A stretch of DNA of 64,000 nt from positions 1-64,000 of the forward strand of contig NZ_VUNS01000027.1 in the NCBI RefSeq assembly GCF_009695545.1. The letters are read 5' to 3'. The position numbers and the translations under genes were made by a program. The notes beneath the pieces were generated by a model. The model ran no database searches. It saw only the letters and a program-made list of their open reading frames with translations, and was not told where the DNA came from. Source of the DNA: Victivallis lenta. Lineage in GTDB: Bacteria > Verrucomicrobiota > Lentisphaeria > Victivallales > Victivallaceae. How positions within the stretch are numbered: the stretch's first letter is position 1; the number at the start of each line of letters is the position of its first letter. Positions 55,947 to 64,000 of the stretch are shown here, piece after piece.

Positions 55947-56023
55947 GGGCGGTTAGCTCAGTTGGTTAGAGCGCTGCTTTCACACGGCAGAGGTCACGTG
56001 TTCGAGTCACGTACCGCCCACCA
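55947..56023 (+). tRNA. tRNA-Val (anticodon CAC), CCA encoded
   Basis: A 77-base cloverleaf. Acceptor GGGCGGT pairs with ACCGCCC, and the T-arm is ACGTG-TTCGAGT-CACGT. The anticodon loop TTCACAC gives CAC, which reads the valine codon GUG. The discriminator A is followed by a genomic CCA. It marks the boundary between ordinary chromosome and the AT-richer island. Confidence 0.95.
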
Positions 56024-56038
56024 TTTTCAAAATTCTCC

Positions 56039-56065
56039 ACCGACCGGTCTTCTGGTCGGTTTTTT
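56039..56065 (+). terminator. Terminator of tRNA-Val
   Basis: ACCGACC / GGTCGGT, 7-bp stem with an 8-base loop, followed by six T residues. Confidence 0.8.
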
Positions 56066-56561
56066 CGTTTCGGGGGTAAATTTGAGCTCAACTCGCGTTT
56101 TGCCCGAAAGCGGAGAATCTCCTCTTTTCTCTTATGAAGGTGTGTTTCAGACCCTCTCCCGGTAAATTCTCCGGGGGAGTAAAAGACCGGTCTTTTGGTC
56201 TGGAGAGCATTTTTTGGAGGAAACACACGTCGAGAAGCTCGACCTTTGATCGTCAATTTTTCTCTGCTATACATTCATTTTGTAATCTTTTATTAAGGTA
56301 ACATGTTTGTACTCAACTGATAATGCAAAAATAAACTTGCAAAGGACATGTGTTCAAAAAATCAAGAGGTCGACCCCTTATTCGCGCAATTCATAACAAA
56401 AGACTTTTTGATTCAGAGAATTTTTCGAGTTTTGCGAAATTCGCTTTTCAGAACAAACGACCTGACGACAACATTCGGACAACATTAATCCTGTCGAAGA
56501 ATATTCAACTTTTATGCTATTCTAATTCCGGTCAGCAATCAAAAAATAGAAATTCCCCCTA

Positions 56562-56590
56562 TTGTAAACCAATCATTTATGGTATATATT
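56562..56590 (+). promoter_or_regulatory. Promoter of the island operon
   Basis: TTGTAA (56562-56567), 17 bases, TATATT (56585-56590), 47 bases before the RdgC-like start codon. Confidence 0.6.
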
Positions 56591-56637
56591 CACCGTATCA
56601 GTTTGCTATAAGACATGAAATACAGGAGGAGAAAATC

Positions 56638-57735
56638 ATGCCTTTTGAAATTGGGACTTTTTCCGTTACGTTATTTGCACTCCCGCAGGATTTGCCGGAG
56701 AACTATATAGATTTGCTGAACGCCAATCGTGCCGGCTGCATAGATTTGGTGAAAGATGAGCCGGAGATTGGCTGGGCGTCAGGACGTTGTCTGCTGGATT
56801 CAAAAATAGAGCAGAGCACCGTGCTATGGAACAATCTGATTTACATCAGTCTGCGCAAAGCAGAGCGCAAGATACCATCTTCTATGCTCAAGGCATGGTG
56901 CCAGCAGGCTGAACTGGTCTGGATGCGCAGCAACGGACGTAGCAACGTGCCGTCGAAGCAGAAGAAGCAAATCAAGGCGGAGGTGATTGAAAAGAATCAG
57001 GTGTCGGTACCTCCAACGCTTTCCTCTATTCCGGCCGTCATAGACAGAACAAATCACATGCTCTATCTCGGGGCATCCTCCTCCGCACAAATAGACCTTT
57101 TTATCGAATATTTTATCAAAACATTCCAGTTTGAACCGGTACAGATTAATCCCGACTATTACAGTGAAATGGAGTTCGGAAAGCATGCCGATGAACTTCC
57201 TGTGATTGAATTCTCTGTCCGGGCGGATGGCGAAACTGTTCCCGGACGTGATTTTCTGACATGGCTGTGGTATTTTTCCGAACAGGAAACCGGAGGTATG
57301 CTGGAGGTTCCAGAAGTCGGGGAATGTACCTTTACGATCGAGGGTCCTTTGACATTTGCGCTGGCAGGCGAAGCCGATGGAGCAGCGGAAAACACCCTCA
57401 AGAACGGGAACAGTCCTTTACGGGCGGCTGAAGCAAAAGCTGCACTTTCAGTTGGCAAAAAGCTCAAGAAGGCGAAATTCTATCTGGAGCACGAGGAAAA
57501 AGTCTGGCAGGGAATGTTTGATGCGGACACTTTTTCCTTTGGTGGAATGAAACTCCCTGAAGGCGAAGAAATGGAACCGGACGACCGTCTGGAGGAACGC
57601 ATGGAGCACATGAATACATTCCGTCTGGTGCTTGCGGCATTCTTCAAAAAGTTCGTAGAAACGCTTCTTTCCTCAGACTGGGAGTCCGAAGAAAGGAAAA
57701 TCCGGGAATGGGTTGTGGAACGTGATGAGAGATAA
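56638..57735 (+). CDS. RdgC-like recombination-associated protein
   Basis: A 365-residue protein. Blocks such as 'GWASGRCLLDS', 'RKIPSSMLKAWC' and 'IPAVIDRTNHMLYLGASSSA' followed by 'FFIKTF'-like residues resemble RdgC, a ring-shaped DNA-binding protein that modulates RecA. 'GRDFLTWLWYFSEQETGG' and the C-terminal half resemble longer RdgC relatives of phages and deltaproteobacteria. The ATG at 56638 has CAGGAGGAG 6 bases upstream. It is the first of six co-directional island genes. The assignment rests on motif memory, not on a search. Confidence 0.6.
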   Translation: MPFEIGTFSVTLFALPQDLPENYIDLLNANRAGCIDLVKDEPEIGWASGRCLLDSKIEQSTVLWNNLIYISLRKAERKIPSSMLKAWCQQAELVWMRSNGRSNVPSKQKKQIKAEVIEKNQVSVPPTLSSIPAVIDRTNHMLYLGASSSAQIDLFIEYFIKTFQFEPVQINPDYYSEMEFGKHADELPVIEFSVRADGETVPGRDFLTWLWYFSEQETGGMLEVPEVGECTFTIEGPLTFALAGEADGAAENTLKNGNSPLRAAEAKAALSVGKKLKKAKFYLEHEEKVWQGMFDADTFSFGGMKLPEGEEMEPDDRLEERMEHMNTFRLVLAAFFKKFVETLLSSDWESEERKIREWVVERDER

Positions 57736-57767
57736 CTCTGCATCAAGCAAATAAGAAACCTTGAATT

Positions 57768-58340
57768 ATGAAACACGAAAAGCAGAAGATACTTGCGGCA
57801 TTCGACCTGGAGACATCGGGGCTTGACCCGGCTGTTCATGATATTATTGAAATAGCCATTGTACCTCTGAATCCAGATTTCAAACGGTCGGATCTGCCGG
57901 AATTCACAGCCCGGATAAAAGCCGTCCATCCAGAGAATGCCGATCCTGAATCCCTGAAAATCAGCGGGCTCAACCCGTTTGAAGGCGAAGATATCCAAAA
58001 GGTTGCCACGGATATAACCAAGTGGATGTCGGATAATCATATTGAACGCATCGAGGCTGTGGGGCATAATCTCAGGTTTGACCTGGATTTCTTCCAGATA
58101 AAGTTTCCGTCACTTTTCCGCATATTTTCCAGTCATTTTCACGACAGTATGCAACTTGCCATTATTATCAATGATATTTCTTTACTGCAAACTGGGAAGA
58201 AACTTTTTCCGAGTGTCAGTTTGCGGAACCTGAAACTTCAGCTTGGGATGGAAGATCCGGTTCAGCACCGGGCCATGGATGACGCTCTTGACGCTGCTGA
58301 ACTTTATCGTCGTCTGCAGACAAAGCTGATCATTAACTGA
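57768..58340 (+). CDS. DnaQ-like 3'-5' exonuclease (DEDDh)
   Basis: A 190-residue protein. Exo I is 'FDLETSGLD' (Asp13, Glu15), Exo II 'GHNLRFDLDF' (Asp105), Exo III 'HRAMDDALDAAELY' (His167, Asp172), so all five catalytic residues are present. Single-domain enzymes of this type degrade or proofread single-stranded DNA or RNA. It follows the RdgC-like gene by 32 bases. The base composition is AT-richer than in the chromosomal genes. Confidence 0.88.
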   Translation: MKHEKQKILAAFDLETSGLDPAVHDIIEIAIVPLNPDFKRSDLPEFTARIKAVHPENADPESLKISGLNPFEGEDIQKVATDITKWMSDNHIERIEAVGHNLRFDLDFFQIKFPSLFRIFSSHFHDSMQLAIIINDISLLQTGKKLFPSVSLRNLKLQLGMEDPVQHRAMDDALDAAELYRRLQTKLIIN

Positions 58341-58354
58341 CAGGAACGATTTTT

Positions 58355-58897
58355 ATGCCGAACATTCAAAAAATCTTGAACGAAGAAATCCGCCGTTTGG
58401 CTCGCAGAGAAATCAGGAACGAGCTTGTAAATCTGAAGGAGCAGCTTGCGTTGATGCGAAAAACCATTACGGAACAAAACCGCAGAATCAAGGCGTTGGA
58501 GGACGTGGTTCCCGCGCCTGCGAAGCCGGTGCGGTCACCCGTAAATCCTTCGACTGCAGCAAAGCCGGTACGTGTTACGGCAGGTCGGATCAAAAAGCTG
58601 CGAATGGAGCTTTGCCTTTCCCAAAGGAAATTTGCCATTTTGCTGGGCGTCAACCCTAACTCGGTTTACTATTGGGAGTCCGGAAAAATCGAGCCGAAAG
58701 AGACCCAGAAACGCAAAATTGCGGCAATCCGTGATGCAGGGAAACGCGAGTTGGCGAAATTGATGGCGGAAAAGAATATTGTGATAAAATTGAAAGCTCC
58801 GGGAAAGCCGGGAGAAACAGTAAATGAGCAAAAAAAGCAAAGCGGAAAAGCGAAAAGCCAAACTCAGGGCGAGAAAACAGCAGATCGCCCTCAGTGA
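58355..58897 (+). CDS. XRE-type HTH protein with coiled-coil N-terminus
   Basis: A 180-residue protein. Residues 1-50 are charged and helical ('IRRLARREIRNELVNLKEQL'), probably a coiled coil. Residues ~77-125 are an HTH ('LRMELCLSQRKFAILLGVNP', then 'NSVYYWESGKIEPKETQKRK'). A basic tail follows. It starts 14 bases after the exonuclease gene. The last 74 bases overlap the next gene in another frame. Likely a DNA-binding regulator of the element. Confidence 0.72.
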   Translation: MPNIQKILNEEIRRLARREIRNELVNLKEQLALMRKTITEQNRRIKALEDVVPAPAKPVRSPVNPSTAAKPVRVTAGRIKKLRMELCLSQRKFAILLGVNPNSVYYWESGKIEPKETQKRKIAAIRDAGKRELAKLMAEKNIVIKLKAPGKPGETVNEQKKQSGKAKSQTQGEKTADRPQ

Positions 58898-59504
58898 ACA
58901 GAGTCTTTCCACACGTCTTTCCTGTGCGTTGGAGAAACTATGCGAACCGGTCATGCCGGAATACATAGACGATTCCAACGGACCGGATCTTGTTGGTCGT
59001 CGGATTGTCTGGCGGATGGGACAGATTGCCTGGAACATCGTGGTTACCGGGCGCAGAGAGTCTATATCGGAGGCGTTTCAGCGCACTCAGTTGGATGTGG
59101 AACAGCAAAAAACTGTTCAAAATGAGATCATCGGTTTGGCCAAACGAAAATATGCCGAATTTCCGAACCTGCGTACTGCCATCCGGGATTTTTCTGTATT
59201 GCGTGTCGGCGGTGTTCCCCACATCAAAGCACGTCCGGGCGATACATTTCCGGAAATACCGTTTCCCGAGTTTGGCGAGCCTGAAAGCGAGCCTGAGACG
59301 GGTTCAGATGTCACGCCGGATATCGTTCGTACTCTGCGCAAAAGGATGAAATTGACGCAGATTCAGTTTGGTGAGATCTTTGGCATGACGTCGAAAAAAG
59401 TTTCCGCTTGGGAACATGGCAAAGCAGAACCGACCGAGGAACAAAAACAAAAAATTCAAGCTTTGCTGAAAGAAAATAATGAGCAAGAACGGGAAACATG
59501 CTAA
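58824..59504 (+). CDS. HTH protein with unknown N-terminal domain
   Basis: A 226-residue protein. The N-terminal 25 residues are Lys/Arg-rich, the middle is an unassigned helical domain ('RIVWRMGQIAWNIVVTGRRE'), and residues ~168-215 are an XRE HTH ('LRKRMKLTQIQFGEIFGMTS', then 'KKVSAWEHGKAEPTEEQKQK') similar to that of the preceding protein. It begins inside the previous gene and its 3' end overlaps the next gene by 26 bases. GGGAG lies 9 bases before the ATG. Confidence 0.7.
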   Translation: MSKKSKAEKRKAKLRARKQQIALSEQSLSTRLSCALEKLCEPVMPEYIDDSNGPDLVGRRIVWRMGQIAWNIVVTGRRESISEAFQRTQLDVEQQKTVQNEIIGLAKRKYAEFPNLRTAIRDFSVLRVGGVPHIKARPGDTFPEIPFPEFGEPESEPETGSDVTPDIVRTLRKRMKLTQIQFGEIFGMTSKKVSAWEHGKAEPTEEQKQKIQALLKENNEQERETC

Positions 59505-59880
59505 TAATATACCGCGTTGCAAACGTATGGCACGGGAACAGAGGCTGCAGTCGGCCAAATCAACAGGCTTTCTCTCAAAGCATATTGCGAAAGATATGGT
59601 CAGGCATTATGCCCGCTGGTATGGCGTTGATCTGTTGTGTGCGATTGCTGAATTGCGTCAACTGGGACTCGAAGTATCTCCTGAACGGGAAAAAGCTGTC
59701 AAAACCACTCTACGGAATCGCCTGGAACAGAAACGGAAAAGTCAGGAAGAATCATTCAGTGCGAATATCTCATGTGATTCCGATGAAACATTTGCATTCA
59801 TTGCCGGGTACACGTCTGGAGGAGCGCCATATGGGGTTACGTGGGGTGAAATGGAAGATGCTGATGGAGAAGTGAAATAA
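59479..59880 (+). CDS. Unknown island protein
   Basis: A 133-residue hypothetical protein. The N-terminus is basic, the middle helical ('MVRHYARWYGVDLLCAIAEL'), and the C-terminus reads 'FAFIAGYTSGGAPYGVTWGE'. No family is recognised. Support comes from the overlap with the upstream HTH gene, direct adjacency to the J-domain gene (next base is its ATG) and consistent composition. Confidence 0.6.
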   Translation: MSKNGKHANNIPRCKRMAREQRLQSAKSTGFLSKHIAKDMVRHYARWYGVDLLCAIAELRQLGLEVSPEREKAVKTTLRNRLEQKRKSQEESFSANISCDSDETFAFIAGYTSGGAPYGVTWGEMEDADGEVK

Positions 59881-61116
59881 ATGAGCAAAAAAAATCACAA
59901 GGGCAGGATAAGTTTAGAAAAAGAACTTGAGGACATCTTTTCAGAATTGTCTTTATGTTCGGGCTTGCCTGTAGAAAATATTGACAACGGGAAAACCGGA
60001 AGAAGTGGAAAAAAAAGAGGTCGGCCACCAAAAAATTCCTGTCGGGCATTGATCCCGTTGGACACTGCAAAAATCCGCCGGGGGTATCTGAAGGAATATA
60101 AGCGCCGGAAAAAAGTCCTTGAAAGGTTGGAGGAGCAACTTCAACGGTATGAAGAATCAGACGAGCCGGAGTACCGTAAATATCTTGCTCGCACGTTCGG
60201 TGCGGAACAAACCCTTTTACGCGAGCTGACGGAACAGATACATTTGTGTCAGAACCGATATGAAAAAATTCGCTTTCTAGCCCATGAATCCCATATGTCG
60301 AAGGAAAGGTATTGTTTTACCTTGCGTTCACAGCTTACCTCCGAACAGAATTTCTGGGAACTTCTGGAGATGGAATTGCAGAGATTCTTGGAGTCTGGCA
60401 GAAAAACACGAGAAGAAGAAAAACGGGAATATGAAAAGAGCGCCCGGGAACTTCGTTCCGCCGTCTTCGGTGTTGATGAGGACGAAGATATTGAAATGGA
60501 CGAAACATGTGAGGACGATGATGATTTTGAAAAAATCTTCCAAAAGCTCTTTGACAATCTTTTGGGAGATGACGATAACATTCCGGAGGAAGAATCGGAA
60601 GTCAGTGAACTGAAAAAACTGTATCGTGAGCTCTGCCTTCAATATCATCCGGACAGAATGGGAGCTCATGACGCTAAAACGCAACGCCTTTGGCATGAGA
60701 TACAGGACGCGTATGTGAATCGTGATCTTGAAGGGTTGCGCGCCATCCGTTCCGGAATCGAATTGGAATCTGGGGAAACGACTCTCAGCTGTTCTGAAAT
60801 CGACGAGATGCTCCTGGATATTGAGTGGAGTATTCAGGAGAAACGTTCTGAACTCCGTGCACAAAAAAAGACTCCGATTTGGGGATTCTCTTCATGGACG
60901 GAACAGAAGCGGAAACAGATAGCCAAAGAGATCAAGTCGGAATTCGATCAGAATGCCCAAATGACCAGGTTGCAGTTACAACGTTTGAAAACGGAATTAG
61001 AGCGTCTGCTTCAATGGAAGCCCAAGGAGAAAAAACGTCCAATTCCGCAGAAGAAAACGAATGCGCAGTTGCGTAATGAGAAGCTGGCTGACATCCCGGA
61101 TTTATTTGATTTGTAG
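59881..61116 (+). CDS. J-domain (DnaJ-like) protein of the island
   Basis: A 411-residue, highly charged protein. A J domain lies in the second half: 'LYRELCLQYHPDRMGAHDAK' with the diagnostic His-Pro-Asp at 256-258, followed by a helix ('RLWHEIQDAYVNRDLEGLRA'). Long coiled-coil-prone segments flank it on both sides (about 70-200 and 295-390), and an AT-hook-like 'KKRGRPPKN' lies near residue 44. J domains stimulate DnaK ATPase; phage ones often recruit host DnaK to replication complexes. No Gly/Phe or zinc region is present. It ends convergent with the KorB-like gene, 3 bases apart. Confidence 0.78.
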   Translation: MSKKNHKGRISLEKELEDIFSELSLCSGLPVENIDNGKTGRSGKKRGRPPKNSCRALIPLDTAKIRRGYLKEYKRRKKVLERLEEQLQRYEESDEPEYRKYLARTFGAEQTLLRELTEQIHLCQNRYEKIRFLAHESHMSKERYCFTLRSQLTSEQNFWELLEMELQRFLESGRKTREEEKREYEKSARELRSAVFGVDEDEDIEMDETCEDDDDFEKIFQKLFDNLLGDDDNIPEEESEVSELKKLYRELCLQYHPDRMGAHDAKTQRLWHEIQDAYVNRDLEGLRAIRSGIELESGETTLSCSEIDEMLLDIEWSIQEKRSELRAQKKTPIWGFSSWTEQKRKQIAKEIKSEFDQNAQMTRLQLQRLKTELERLLQWKPKEKKRPIPQKKTNAQLRNEKLADIPDLFDL

Positions 61117-61119
61117 ATG

Positions 61120-61506
61120 TCAGATTTCTTTCAAGAGAACTTTTTCCTGTTCCGCCCATGAGTCGGGAAGACTCCGGCGGCAACTATCCAAGGAAAGGTC
61201 AAGTTCACCGGAGAGGAGTTTATGGATGATCTTAGGGGAAAGGAGTGTCAGGCGAATCGTCCGGGAAATCAGCCCAGAATCAACTCTGACGGTTGCAGCC
61301 AGATCCTTGATGTTGGAAAATTTTCCTTCATCAATCATTTTCTGCCAGCGGAAAGCCCGGGCAAGAGCCAGCTGAATTGGAGTATATTCTACATGTTCAC
61401 TGTCGGGGGTAAAAATTCTCGTTCTGCCACCGGCGATTTTGAAAATCAACGGGATCGTCACCCGGACATTCCCGTTTTCCAGAACTTCAATCTGTTTCTT
61501 CTCCAT
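61120..61506 (-). CDS. KorB/ParB-like HTH protein linked to serine recombinase
   Basis: A 128-residue protein. 'LARAFRWQKMIDEGKFSNIK', then 'DLAATVRVDSGLISRTIRLT' and 'LLSPKIIHKLLSGE', form a KorB/ParB-type HTH as found in small proteins encoded beside serine recombinases of phage islands. It ends with 'LPDSWAEQEKVL'. Its start overlaps the recombinase 3' end by 20 bases, so the two are co-translated. It may act as a directionality factor or repressor; this is inference. Confidence 0.72.
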   Translation of the reverse strand: MEKKQIEVLENGNVRVTIPLIFKIAGGRTRIFTPDSEHVEYTPIQLALARAFRWQKMIDEGKFSNIKDLAATVRVDSGLISRTIRLTLLSPKIIHKLLSGELDLSLDSCRRSLPDSWAEQEKVLLKEI

Positions 61507-62776
61507 TCGCGATTTCCTCCATAAGAGTTTTGATACCTGAACTCTTGAATTCTACAGTGAGCTTGCCTTCGTGAACTTCGACCTTTTCCAGGAGGAGATG
61601 GAGAAGGCGGTTCATTTCACCGGGCGAGATCTCCTGCCAGAATGTTTCTTTGAACAGTTCTGCGATTTTCTCTGCGGGAAGATTCAACACTTGCGCCAGT
61701 TTTATCAGAATCGTCGGTGTCTGAAGCATTTTCATCACCTGTTCCCGAGTGATCCGCTCCACATCTCCTGCGGGGATCTGGCGCACCGGGCAAGTCGGAG
61801 TTGCCCGTTTGGAATCCTTTGCACAGAAATAATAGTAATACTGTTTTCTGCCTTTCCGCGCATAGGTTGGCATCATTGCGCAATCGCAGTGTCCGCAGCG
61901 TAAGATTCCTTTTAACGGAGCAATGATTTCAGTCCTGGGCATATGGGCTGGTGCGGGATCATTCACTCTGAGAATTTCCCGAGTCCGATCCCAGACGTCC
62001 TGGTCGATAATCGCTTCCTGTTCTCCATCACAAATGCTGTTTTTGTAGTTGACCTTACCAACGTAAGTATGGTTGCTCAGAATCCGATAAATATGCTGTC
62101 TGTTCCAAATTCTTCCCTGCTTGGTTCGAATCCCGTCTCTGTTGAGTTCCTGAGCAATCAGTGCCGGAGACTGAACCTCGATGAATCGCTGAAAGATTCT
62201 TTGGATGATCCGTGCTTCCTCCTCCACGATGATCAGCTTCTTGTTTTCCACACGGTATCCCATCGGAACGCGACCGCCGACCCATTTACCTTTCTTCCGG
62301 CTGGCGGACATCTTGTCGCGTACACGCTCGGTGATAACCTCCCGCTCATATTGCGCGAAGGTGATAAGAATGTTGAGCATCATTCGCCCGGCGCTGGTGG
62401 CGGTATTGATTTCCTGCGTCACCGCGACGAACTGTGTGCCCCATTCGTCAAATTTCTTGGAGAGGTCTGCAAAATCACAGATGGATCGGGAGAGTCGGTC
62501 GATCTTGTAAACCACGATGATGTCGACCAGCCCGGCTTCACAGTCGGCAAGGAGCTGCTGAAGCGCCGGGCGTTTCATATTGCCGCCGGAATATCCTCCG
62601 TCGTCATAACGAGTCGGGAGGCAGACCCATCCGTTGGCTTTCTGACTGGCGATATAGGCTTCGCCAGCCTCCCGTTGAGCATCCAGACTGTTGAATTCCT
62701 GATCCAGTCCTTCCTCAACGGACTTGCGTGTGTAAATCGCGCATCTCTTCTTTGGAATCGTCTGCATCACCATCAC
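61487..62776 (-). CDS. Serine recombinase (phage integrase type)
   Basis: A 429-residue site-specific recombinase. The resolvase domain is N-terminal: catalytic Ser19 in 'CAIYTRKSVEEG', Arg in 'IDRLSRSICDFADL', and 'QYEREVITERVRDKM'. A Recombinase domain follows ('GRVPMGYRV', 'IRTKQGRIWNRQHIYRIL'), then a zinc ribbon ('CGHCDCAMM', 'CAKD', 'CPVRQIP') and a C-terminal coiled coil. It should integrate and excise the element; it is on the short side for large serine integrases. The start is in an ATGA overlap with the DUF2924 gene. Confidence 0.92.
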   Translation of the reverse strand: MMVMQTIPKKRCAIYTRKSVEEGLDQEFNSLDAQREAGEAYIASQKANGWVCLPTRYDDGGYSGGNMKRPALQQLLADCEAGLVDIIVVYKIDRLSRSICDFADLSKKFDEWGTQFVAVTQEINTATSAGRMMLNILITFAQYEREVITERVRDKMSASRKKGKWVGGRVPMGYRVENKKLIIVEEEARIIQRIFQRFIEVQSPALIAQELNRDGIRTKQGRIWNRQHIYRILSNHTYVGKVNYKNSICDGEQEAIIDQDVWDRTREILRVNDPAPAHMPRTEIIAPLKGILRCGHCDCAMMPTYARKGRKQYYYYFCAKDSKRATPTCPVRQIPAGDVERITREQVMKMLQTPTILIKLAQVLNLPAEKIAELFKETFWQEISPGEMNRLLHLLLEKVEVHEGKLTVEFKSSGIKTLMEEIANGEETD

Positions 62777-63204
62777 TTCACCCCGAAAAAGAGTTTGCCG
62801 TTCCAGCGAGTCCCGGTAATTTCGCGGGCGATGGCGGAAAGCGATTGATAGACCGTTCCGTCATATTCGAATTTTCCATTCCCGAGAGCCGTCACTTCAT
62901 ATTTTTTACCTTTCCAGACCCTCTGGTAGCGAGTTCCGCACACATGGGAAACTCCATTTTTTCCATACCGGAGATTTGCCTGGGGATCGCCGTCTGCAAT
63001 CTGCTCAAGAAGTTGCCGGTCCGCTTCGGAGAGTCCGCCGTAATAAATCTCTTGAATCCGGTAGGCAAGACGGCGGCGCAGGTTTGCAATATTGGTCTGC
63101 CCCGGTTCAAAGCCAAAGAGTTCACAGAATTTTTCCCGAAGTTCTGCCTGATTCATCAGATCCAGCAACTCCAGCTGCCGTTTTACCTCAGATTCATTCA
63201 TCAT
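62773..63204 (-). CDS. DUF2924 protein
   Basis: A 143-residue protein. 'LRRRLAYRIQEIYYGGLSEA', 'GTRYQRVWKGKKYEVTALGN' and 'SLSAIAREITGTRWNGKLFF' are the conserved blocks of DUF2924, commonly encoded between a serine recombinase and phage terminase genes. Function is unknown; the C-terminal half looks like a small DNA-binding domain. The ATG at 63204 has AAGGGG upstream; an earlier start would pass into the previous gene. It overlaps neighbours on both sides by 4 bases. Confidence 0.82.
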   Translation of the reverse strand: MMNESEVKRQLELLDLMNQAELREKFCELFGFEPGQTNIANLRRRLAYRIQEIYYGGLSEADRQLLEQIADGDPQANLRYGKNGVSHVCGTRYQRVWKGKKYEVTALGNGKFEYDGTVYQSLSAIAREITGTRWNGKLFFGVK

Positions 63205-63344
63205 GCCGTAACCCCTTTGCTTTTCTCTATATACAAGCATTTATCCCTGCGTTTATCCAGTTCTTTTGCCTTGATTCTGCGAAGAACTGCGGCAATCAGA
63301 TCGATCGCCTGACGAATATTTTCGGGAAGTTCCCGTTTATCCAT
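63201..63344 (-). CDS. 47-residue phage-island protein
   Basis: A small helical protein ('ELPENIRQAIDLIAAVLRRI') with a basic end. The ATG at 63344 follows AGGAGACAG. It overlaps the terminase gene by 8 bases and DUF2924 by 4, so it is a real member of the operon. No family is recognised. Confidence 0.6.
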   Translation of the reverse strand: MDKRELPENIRQAIDLIAAVLRRIKAKELDKRRDKCLYIEKSKGVTA

Positions 63345-64000
63345 TTTTCTGTCTCCTGAGTTCGGAAAGTTTGAGTCTGCCATTCGGGGGAATCCCGCCA
63401 GGGCGTTTGTCGGAAAGGCGGATCATCGGCTTGCGGTCGAGCTTCGCGGGAAGCGTCTCGGGCAAAGATGCGCCGAGCATGGATCCGCAGACCGCACAGC
63501 CTGCGACACAGTCCAGAAAGTGGTTGTCGTGCGACTGAGGCTTGAGTTTCCACTCGTCGACCGTGCGGCCGCGCCCCTGTGTTTTGACGCGGTATTCAGC
63601 GGTCAGATGCTCTGCGAAGAGTTGATGAGCTCCGGGGATCCGTCCGTAGAGCGTGAGCGACCCCTTGTCGCCGACGGGAACCGCGAGCCGTGCGTGAATA
63701 AAACTCTTCCAGTAGTTTGTGTCGTAGATGACATGCCGGATCGCCCGTTTCCCGGCGACATTCGGAATCATCCAGTTGAATCCGAGCCGGTCGCCCTGCT
63801 GTTTGCGGTATTCGGTCATGGGTTTCGAGGAAGCGCCGACGTATCTGCCATGCGACGGCAGGATCACTCCGGCATGGGAACTCTGACGGCAGAACTGATA
63901 GACGACATCGGTTGACTGTCCCCAGTTTGCATCCACGAGAGCGCGCTCGATTTTCAGGACAGCCCCGTCCTCGCGCTCCCACTCGCGCCCGAGGCATTCA
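63337..64000 (-). CDS. Phage terminase large subunit, gpA type (C-terminal part)
   Basis: The last 221 codons of a gene whose frame stays open to the right edge, so the start lies outside. 'VDANWGQSTDVVYQFCRQS' is the nuclease-domain motif of gpA-like terminases, and 'LGFNWMIPNVAG', 'YGRIPGAHQLFAEHLTAEY' and 'SHDNHFLDCVAGCAVCGSML' continue the family pattern. It cuts and packages phage DNA. Its presence shows that the island is a prophage or a phage-derived element. This stretch is GC-richer than 56-61 kb. Confidence 0.85.
   Translation of the reverse strand, partial: ECLGREWEREDGAVLKIERALVDANWGQSTDVVYQFCRQSSHAGVILPSHGRYVGASSKPMTEYRKQQGDRLGFNWMIPNVAGKRAIRHVIYDTNYWKSFIHARLAVPVGDKGSLTLYGRIPGAHQLFAEHLTAEYRVKTQGRGRTVDEWKLKPQSHDNHFLDCVAGCAVCGSMLGASLPETLPAKLDRKPMIRLSDKRPGGIPPNGRLKLSELRRQKNG

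Follow-up and report, generated by a model that had tools for sequence, protein, structure and literature searches.

A six-gene operon in a variable, integrase-side slot of a Victivallis lenta prophage as probable accessory cargo

In other phyla, prophages and satellites (P2-like, P4-like and others) have hotspots of 1-5 kb, some of them adjacent to the integrase, that carry anti-phage systems (Rousset et al. 2022, PMC9122126), and RexA of phage lambda, a phage-exclusion protein with the RdgC fold, binds DNA non-specifically (PMC11077077). In this work we analyzed a stretch of 64,000 nucleotides of Victivallis lenta (contig NZ_VUNS01000027.1; hereafter the window, whose numbering is used throughout), in which a block of six genes at 56638-61116 lies within a prophage. 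The genes encode, in order, an RdgC-like protein (RdgC), a DEDDh exonuclease (EXO), two helix-turn-helix (HTH) proteins (HTH1 and HTH2), a protein named here ORPH and a J-domain protein (JDP). As a whole, the block is best explained as an operon that a temperate phage carries as accessory cargo and that probably protects the host or excludes phages, a reading to which we assign a probability of about 0.5.

As in the described hotspots, a variable locus lies here between conserved phage genes, near the integrase, and shows high turnover, with sister elements that are empty or otherwise filled. It differs from them in host phylum, in the tRNA-linked serine-recombinase type of the phage, and in a cargo without a recognised complete defence system. 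The first gene of the block belongs to the RdgC family, and in this it recalls RexA; unlike Rex, the block has no RexB-like membrane partner (as judged from a hydropathy scan), and its protein is RdgC-like rather than RexA-like in sequence. EXO, like the DEDDh (DnaQ-like) exonucleases of phages and defence loci, has intact catalytic residues and weakly matches both phage DnaQ-like subunits and the DEDDh models of PADLOC, but it adjoins neither a polymerase nor a CRISPR locus. JDP resembles proteins recognisable by their J-domain only; however, its family is 380-410 aa long, the other parts match nothing known, and the member in the block carries an AT-hook-like stretch.

A cargo slot between the tRNA-side end and the recombinase

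The prophage begins on the left at its integration site, the 3' end of a tRNA-Val (CAC) gene (55947..56023, + strand, ARAGORN), which is followed by an attachment-side sequence (56024..56463) that is ~91-99% identical in sister prophages. On the other side of the block are g7, a small protein gene (61120..61506, - strand, PHROG 14161), and a phage-type large serine recombinase, the integrase (61487..62776, - strand; Pfam Resolvase, Recombinase and Zn ribbon; PHROG 95, 9e-111). Between these conserved sequences an insert of 4,678 bp (56464..61141) stands in place of the ~174 bp that are found in empty-slot prophages. In three of these (G058:C24, the left-hand copy in G000:C41, and G002:C21; genomes, contigs and fetched loci are cited by our handles G, C and L) the shared ~440 bp are followed by the ~174 bp and then by the 3' end of g7, and G058:C65 gives partial support to the same comparison. 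At the left junction AACAAACGACCT is followed by the insert sequence GACGACAACATT; at the right junction CAAGAGAAC is followed by TTTTTCCTG, the conserved side beginning with TTTTCCTGTTCCGCCC. No target duplication is visible at these junctions in the comparison with the empty-slot prophages.

Conserved phage sequence thus bounds the cargo on both sides, the same flanks occur in empty and in filled form, and the distance between the left end and the g7-recombinase unit lies within the ~1-5 kb of hotspot cargo. Overlapping co-directional genes are common in bacteria; what exceeds chance is that the block as a unit forms a defined insertion relative to near-identical sister prophages. Because these sisters share the flanks with only ~174 bp between them, the block is, with high probability, accessory cargo at a variable integrase-side slot and not a core early-phage module. 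It is best read as a new allele of the cargo that occupies a diversity hotspot of these prophages.

The preliminary description had considered a replication-takeover or recombination module, and the block could accordingly consist of ordinary early-phage recombination or replication genes. The PHROG classes of RdgC and of the DEDDh exonuclease are indeed DNA metabolism, and relatives of EXO are present in other prophages of the order. However, the block is transcribed against the direction of the terminase, methylase and primase-like genes and is absent from near-identical prophages, on which ground a core early-phage module was rejected. In a search of 50,697 phage records no relative of RdgC, HTH2, ORPH or JDP was found and EXO gave matches at 25-28% only (HTH1 was not searched there), so that the genes could not be assigned to a described phage group as its ordinary early genes. 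We regard this explanation as highly improbable.

In most sister prophages the block is missing or other cargo takes its place, and in some the cargo has been cut down. Three genes, for a DUF3990 protein, an 82-aa protein and a DUF3791 protein, occupy the slot in G087, G086 and G092 (L112:3460-4381, L113:985-1906 and L119:3594-4515), a layout that looks toxin-antitoxin-like; no paper on DUF3990 and DUF3791 together was found in a literature search. In the right-hand copy of G000:C41 a truncated T5orf172-ResIII helicase gene continues into the final 72 codons of JDP (L052:14807-15836, beside the second prophage copy), and in G095 other DNA is followed by JDP from residue 146 onward, at 99% DNA identity. 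These two remnants suggest that JDP-bearing cargo was once present in several prophages and was cut down in some. Slots held this truncated helicase or the DUF3990/DUF3791 genes, but no complete PADLOC system was seen in a slot. The cargo DNA is mobile: G053, which belongs to another taxonomic family, has the left end and RdgC at 94-95% identity to the window, G095 has the piece of JDP, and in G003 a tRNA-Val gene is followed by the 440-bp end, the first ~60 bases of the leader of the block, and then host sequence. Because most of the genomes are in fragments, with contigs that often stop at the repeated left end, the numbers of empty and filled forms are no census; beyond the window, genes were called with a simple script.

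The order of tRNA gene, g7 and serine recombinase recurs in many prophages. Sequence near-identical to the present prophage adjoins tRNA-Pro (G000:C41 and G002:C21), tRNA-Ala (G058:C24) and tRNA-Val (G053:C32), and related recombinase units adjoin tRNA-Pro (G058:C6), a tmRNA (G031:C318) and other tRNAs. A total of 137 genomes of the order were searched (61 for RdgC and ORPH). In 19 of the 137 the ~440-bp left end was found 3' of tRNA-Val, -Pro, -Ala, -Arg and other genes, with up to 99% identity across taxonomic families (loci L178, L184 and L186-L205). At some of these sites it stands without prophage genes, and such lone copies are probably scars of past insertions.

Beyond the integrase the window contains a DUF2924 protein gene (62773..63240, - strand, Pfam PF11149, 1.8e-40) and a GpA-type terminase large subunit gene (63337..64000, - strand), which runs on to contig position 65691. 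Farther along the contig there are genes for a ParB-N/DNA-methylase-like and a primase-like protein, both named by sequence appearance, and the contig ends at 71167, still within the prophage.

Three further loci with g7 were observed. G003:C52 contains two equally oriented copies of g7, separated by ~26 kb that hold chromosomal-looking genes (L064:1-2572 and L065). MBOAT and AlgX-like genes, possibly a surface-modification cargo, are located between tRNA-Val and g7 in L111:5396-10672. Nine co-directional genes, the first of which encodes a WYL regulator, lie beside the g7 of another prophage of the family (L082:778-8886).

The six genes and their relatives

The list of open reading frames (ORFs) of the window places all six genes, co-directional as had been described, on the + strand, with distances of 32, 14, -74, -26 and 0 bases in order from RdgC to JDP: HTH1 and HTH2 overlap by 74 bases, HTH2 and ORPH by 26, and ORPH and JDP abut. 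HTH2, ORPH and JDP have the start sequence ATGAGCAA in common. The block is AT-richer than the chromosome, in agreement with the preliminary description (46.6% GC vs 61.9% in positions 1-55900, with 50.9% in the recombinase gene), and it does face the serine recombinase, being convergent with the unit of g7, recombinase, DUF2924 and GpA-type terminase genes. Within the insert, a direct repeat of GACAACATT in two copies at a spacing of 11 (56467..56486, + strand) may be an operator. A promoter-like TTGTAA-17-TATATT (56562..56590, + strand) ends 48 bases upstream of RdgC; it is a consensus match only (9/12), and the matches of this region are not clearly above those of shuffled sequences.

The RdgC-like protein (56638..57735, +, 365 aa) matches Pfam PF04381 (1.2e-6) and PHROG 724 (2.1e-9). 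The Pfam score is 28.5 bits against a curated cut-off of 25 and covers residues 60-167 only, and the protein fails the subfamily/equivalog cut-off of the NCBIfam RdgC model (23.6 bits vs 324). Judged from these scores, the protein appears to be a distant relative and not an orthologue of E. coli RdgC. Relatives were found in 58 of the 61 sampled genomes, often at a stable chromosomal site beside a gene that by appearance is deoxyxylulose-synthase-like. In the tree the copy of the block groups with those of G009:C47, a prophage contig, and G027:C218 (support 98/94), separately from G000's own copy; its exact place is unsure because its row is long. A dN/dS of 0.12 over 753 bases, window vs G053, indicates purifying selection.

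EXO (57768..58340, +, 190 aa) is a DEDDh 3'-5' exonuclease by its Pfam RNase_T match (2.5e-16) and by alignment, in which the D-x-E, D, H, D residues D13, E15, D105, H167 and D172 are invariant. Its closest relatives (45-50%) belong to prophages of the same order. Several of these lie in a conserved prophage set of WYL, ATPase, HEAT, receiver and EXO genes (L004:10920-16440; L075, L076, L078, L080 and partly L081), the first four being named from sequence appearance and weak PADLOC matches. In that set the WYL-like regulator faces an ATPase with weak Ppl/AriA/PtuA-like PADLOC matches, and the set looks like a candidate defence module.

HTH1 (58355..58897, +) has a coiled-coil-like N-terminal part and an XRE HTH, and HTH2 (58824..59504, +) an uncharacterised N-domain of ~150 aa and an MqsA/XRE-like HTH; both match Pfam HTH_3, with E-values of 2.2e-5 and 4.2e-5. 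HTH1 has relatives in 79 of the 137 genomes, usually one per genome and mostly chromosomal, whose neighbours show no common context beyond a few genes. A single-sequence structure model of HTH2 was of low confidence (53.9), with only the C-terminal HTH confident. ORPH (59479..59880, +), a helical N-domain followed by the motif DSDETFAFIAGYTSGGxPYGxTW, gave no match in Pfam, PHROG, PADLOC or NCBIfam. It had been taken for an orphan, which it is not: the uncharacterised family, with the motif alone or behind a helical domain (L124-L153), has relatives in Bacillota, Bacteroidota, Deltaproteobacteria, Acidobacteria and others, with no common neighbourhood among the matches listed. JDP (59881..61116, +; Pfam DnaJ, 2.4e-6) combines the HPD motif of its J-domain, H256, P257 and D258 of which are invariant in 8 homologues, with an AT-hook-like GRP stretch (E 0.16). 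It has relatives in 20 of the 137 genomes; one of these relatives is flanked by a type I restriction gene and by a HipA-like gene.

Neither these genomes (61 for RdgC and ORPH), nor the phage records (HTH1 not searched there), nor limited viral-contig scans yielded a further copy of the six-gene set, and as far as these searches reach the composition is undescribed, as had been stated. The viral-contig scans yielded nothing for EXO, JDP and RdgC, and for ORPH one contig with the C-terminal motif only. A conserved co-occurrence of the six families, which the preliminary description had proposed to look for, was not found. Among all fetched loci, only G009:C47 has two of the families outside the block and its copies, namely RdgC and ORPH, together with a recombinase remnant and a tRNA-Met. 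A second element of G009 (C97) carries JDP and another DEDDh exonuclease, and has seven genes in common with C47. The families thus travel in similar elements, and the six-gene operon is, by these comparisons, so far unique.

These results bear on the main rival of a host-protective operon, the chance accretion of host-derived genes, which would have gathered singly in a tolerated slot and would be co-transcribed without a joint function. Such a history is consistent with the separate finding of the six families, with RdgC and HTH1 as near-core chromosomal families, and with the lack of a second copy of the set. The tight overlaps from HTH1 through HTH2 and ORPH to JDP, the purifying selection on RdgC, and the shared occurrences in the two G009 elements argue against it. 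We consider accretion the less probable of the two, but to be taken seriously.

A possible host-protective role

Some relatives of HTH2 lie in a defence context. They adjoin BrxHI-PglZ-BrxA, a type I restriction-modification (RM) system with PDC-S19, and a type II RM system with Vsr and PD-Lambda-3_B; in G031:C192 the N-domain is fused to a DNA-glycosylase domain and stands directly after BrxHI-PglZ-BrxA (L088:1127-7919). Several of the 44 neighbours of 7 HTH2 relatives strongly matched defence proteins (BrxHI, PglZ, BrxA, type I R and S subunits, PD-Lambda-3_B and others), whereas 44 control genes gave two phage methyltransferases and one candidate protein. A multi-gene defence system was present at 3/7 HTH2 loci vs 0/12 control prophage loci (Fisher P 0.036), an enrichment that is suggestive only, because most of the control genes had been drawn at random.

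Together with the RexA fold and the analogy to hotspots, these contexts make phage exclusion or defence our leading guess for the role, held tentatively, with chance accretion as its main rival. The operon, in the variable slot that separates the tRNA-side attachment end from the g7-integrase unit, would have a promoter of its own that is active in the lysogen and would be regulated by HTH1 and HTH2; its most likely function would be to help the lysogen against competing DNA. A DNA-encircling protein of the RdgC/RexA type and the basic HTH and ORPH proteins would bind the DNA, the DEDDh exonuclease would trim ends or single strands, and the J-protein would bring DnaK to remodel the complex. 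The more specific proposal of a new multi-gene phage-exclusion system, in which an RdgC/RexA-type DNA-encircling protein and the DEDDh exonuclease would be joined by a J-domain co-chaperone dedicated to them that recruits host DnaK onto invading DNA complexes, seems unlikely at present.

Several observations weigh against a host-protective role. The control set is small and consists mostly of randomly sampled genes of sister-prophage loci, not of nearest genes. The block matches no known defence system as a system in PADLOC, EXO and the HTH proteins giving domain-level matches only. HTH2 relatives at 28-30% identity also adjoin ordinary oxidoreductase-like genes, and the relatives of HTH1 and ORPH were found without a defence context. 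The structure prediction that had been suggested for ORPH returned a helical N-domain but no confident fold match: the best second-look match, a FapR-type HTH with Z 6.1, lies within the stated noise of the tool, and Foldseek gave nothing below E 0.001. Nor is the cargo intact everywhere, as JDP is truncated in sister prophages. Finally, the set may not be one system, since the six families recur separately and only RdgC and ORPH are joined on one contig (G009:C47). Of the defence cassette carried by the element, as previously suggested, the carriage is borne out by the slot, empty in sisters and conserved in its flanks; defence is possible but unproven, the HTH2 contexts speaking for it and the lack of a PADLOC system against it.

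The operon could also serve lysogeny control, with the RdgC-like protein acting on the lysis-lysogeny switch in the manner of RexA and with HTH1 and HTH2 as accessory repressors. RexA does bias the lambda switch and has the RdgC fold (PMC11077077), and two XRE regulators are present in this one integrase-adjacent operon. However, no protein of the block looks membrane-spanning like RexB (the highest 19-residue hydropathy is 1.07), and the block cannot be the core switch, because sister prophages are without it. Such a role is quite unlikely in our view.

In an understudied order, a defined prophage cargo slot with empty and filled forms provides a handle for the discovery of new lysogen-protecting genes. 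A literature search on J-domains and anti-phage defence gave no relevant paper among the matches listed, and a joint description of RdgC-type rings and J-domain co-chaperones in phage defence was not found in the searches made. If it is true that the cassette excludes phages, RdgC-type DNA-binding rings and J-domain co-chaperones would join the repertoire of phage defence.

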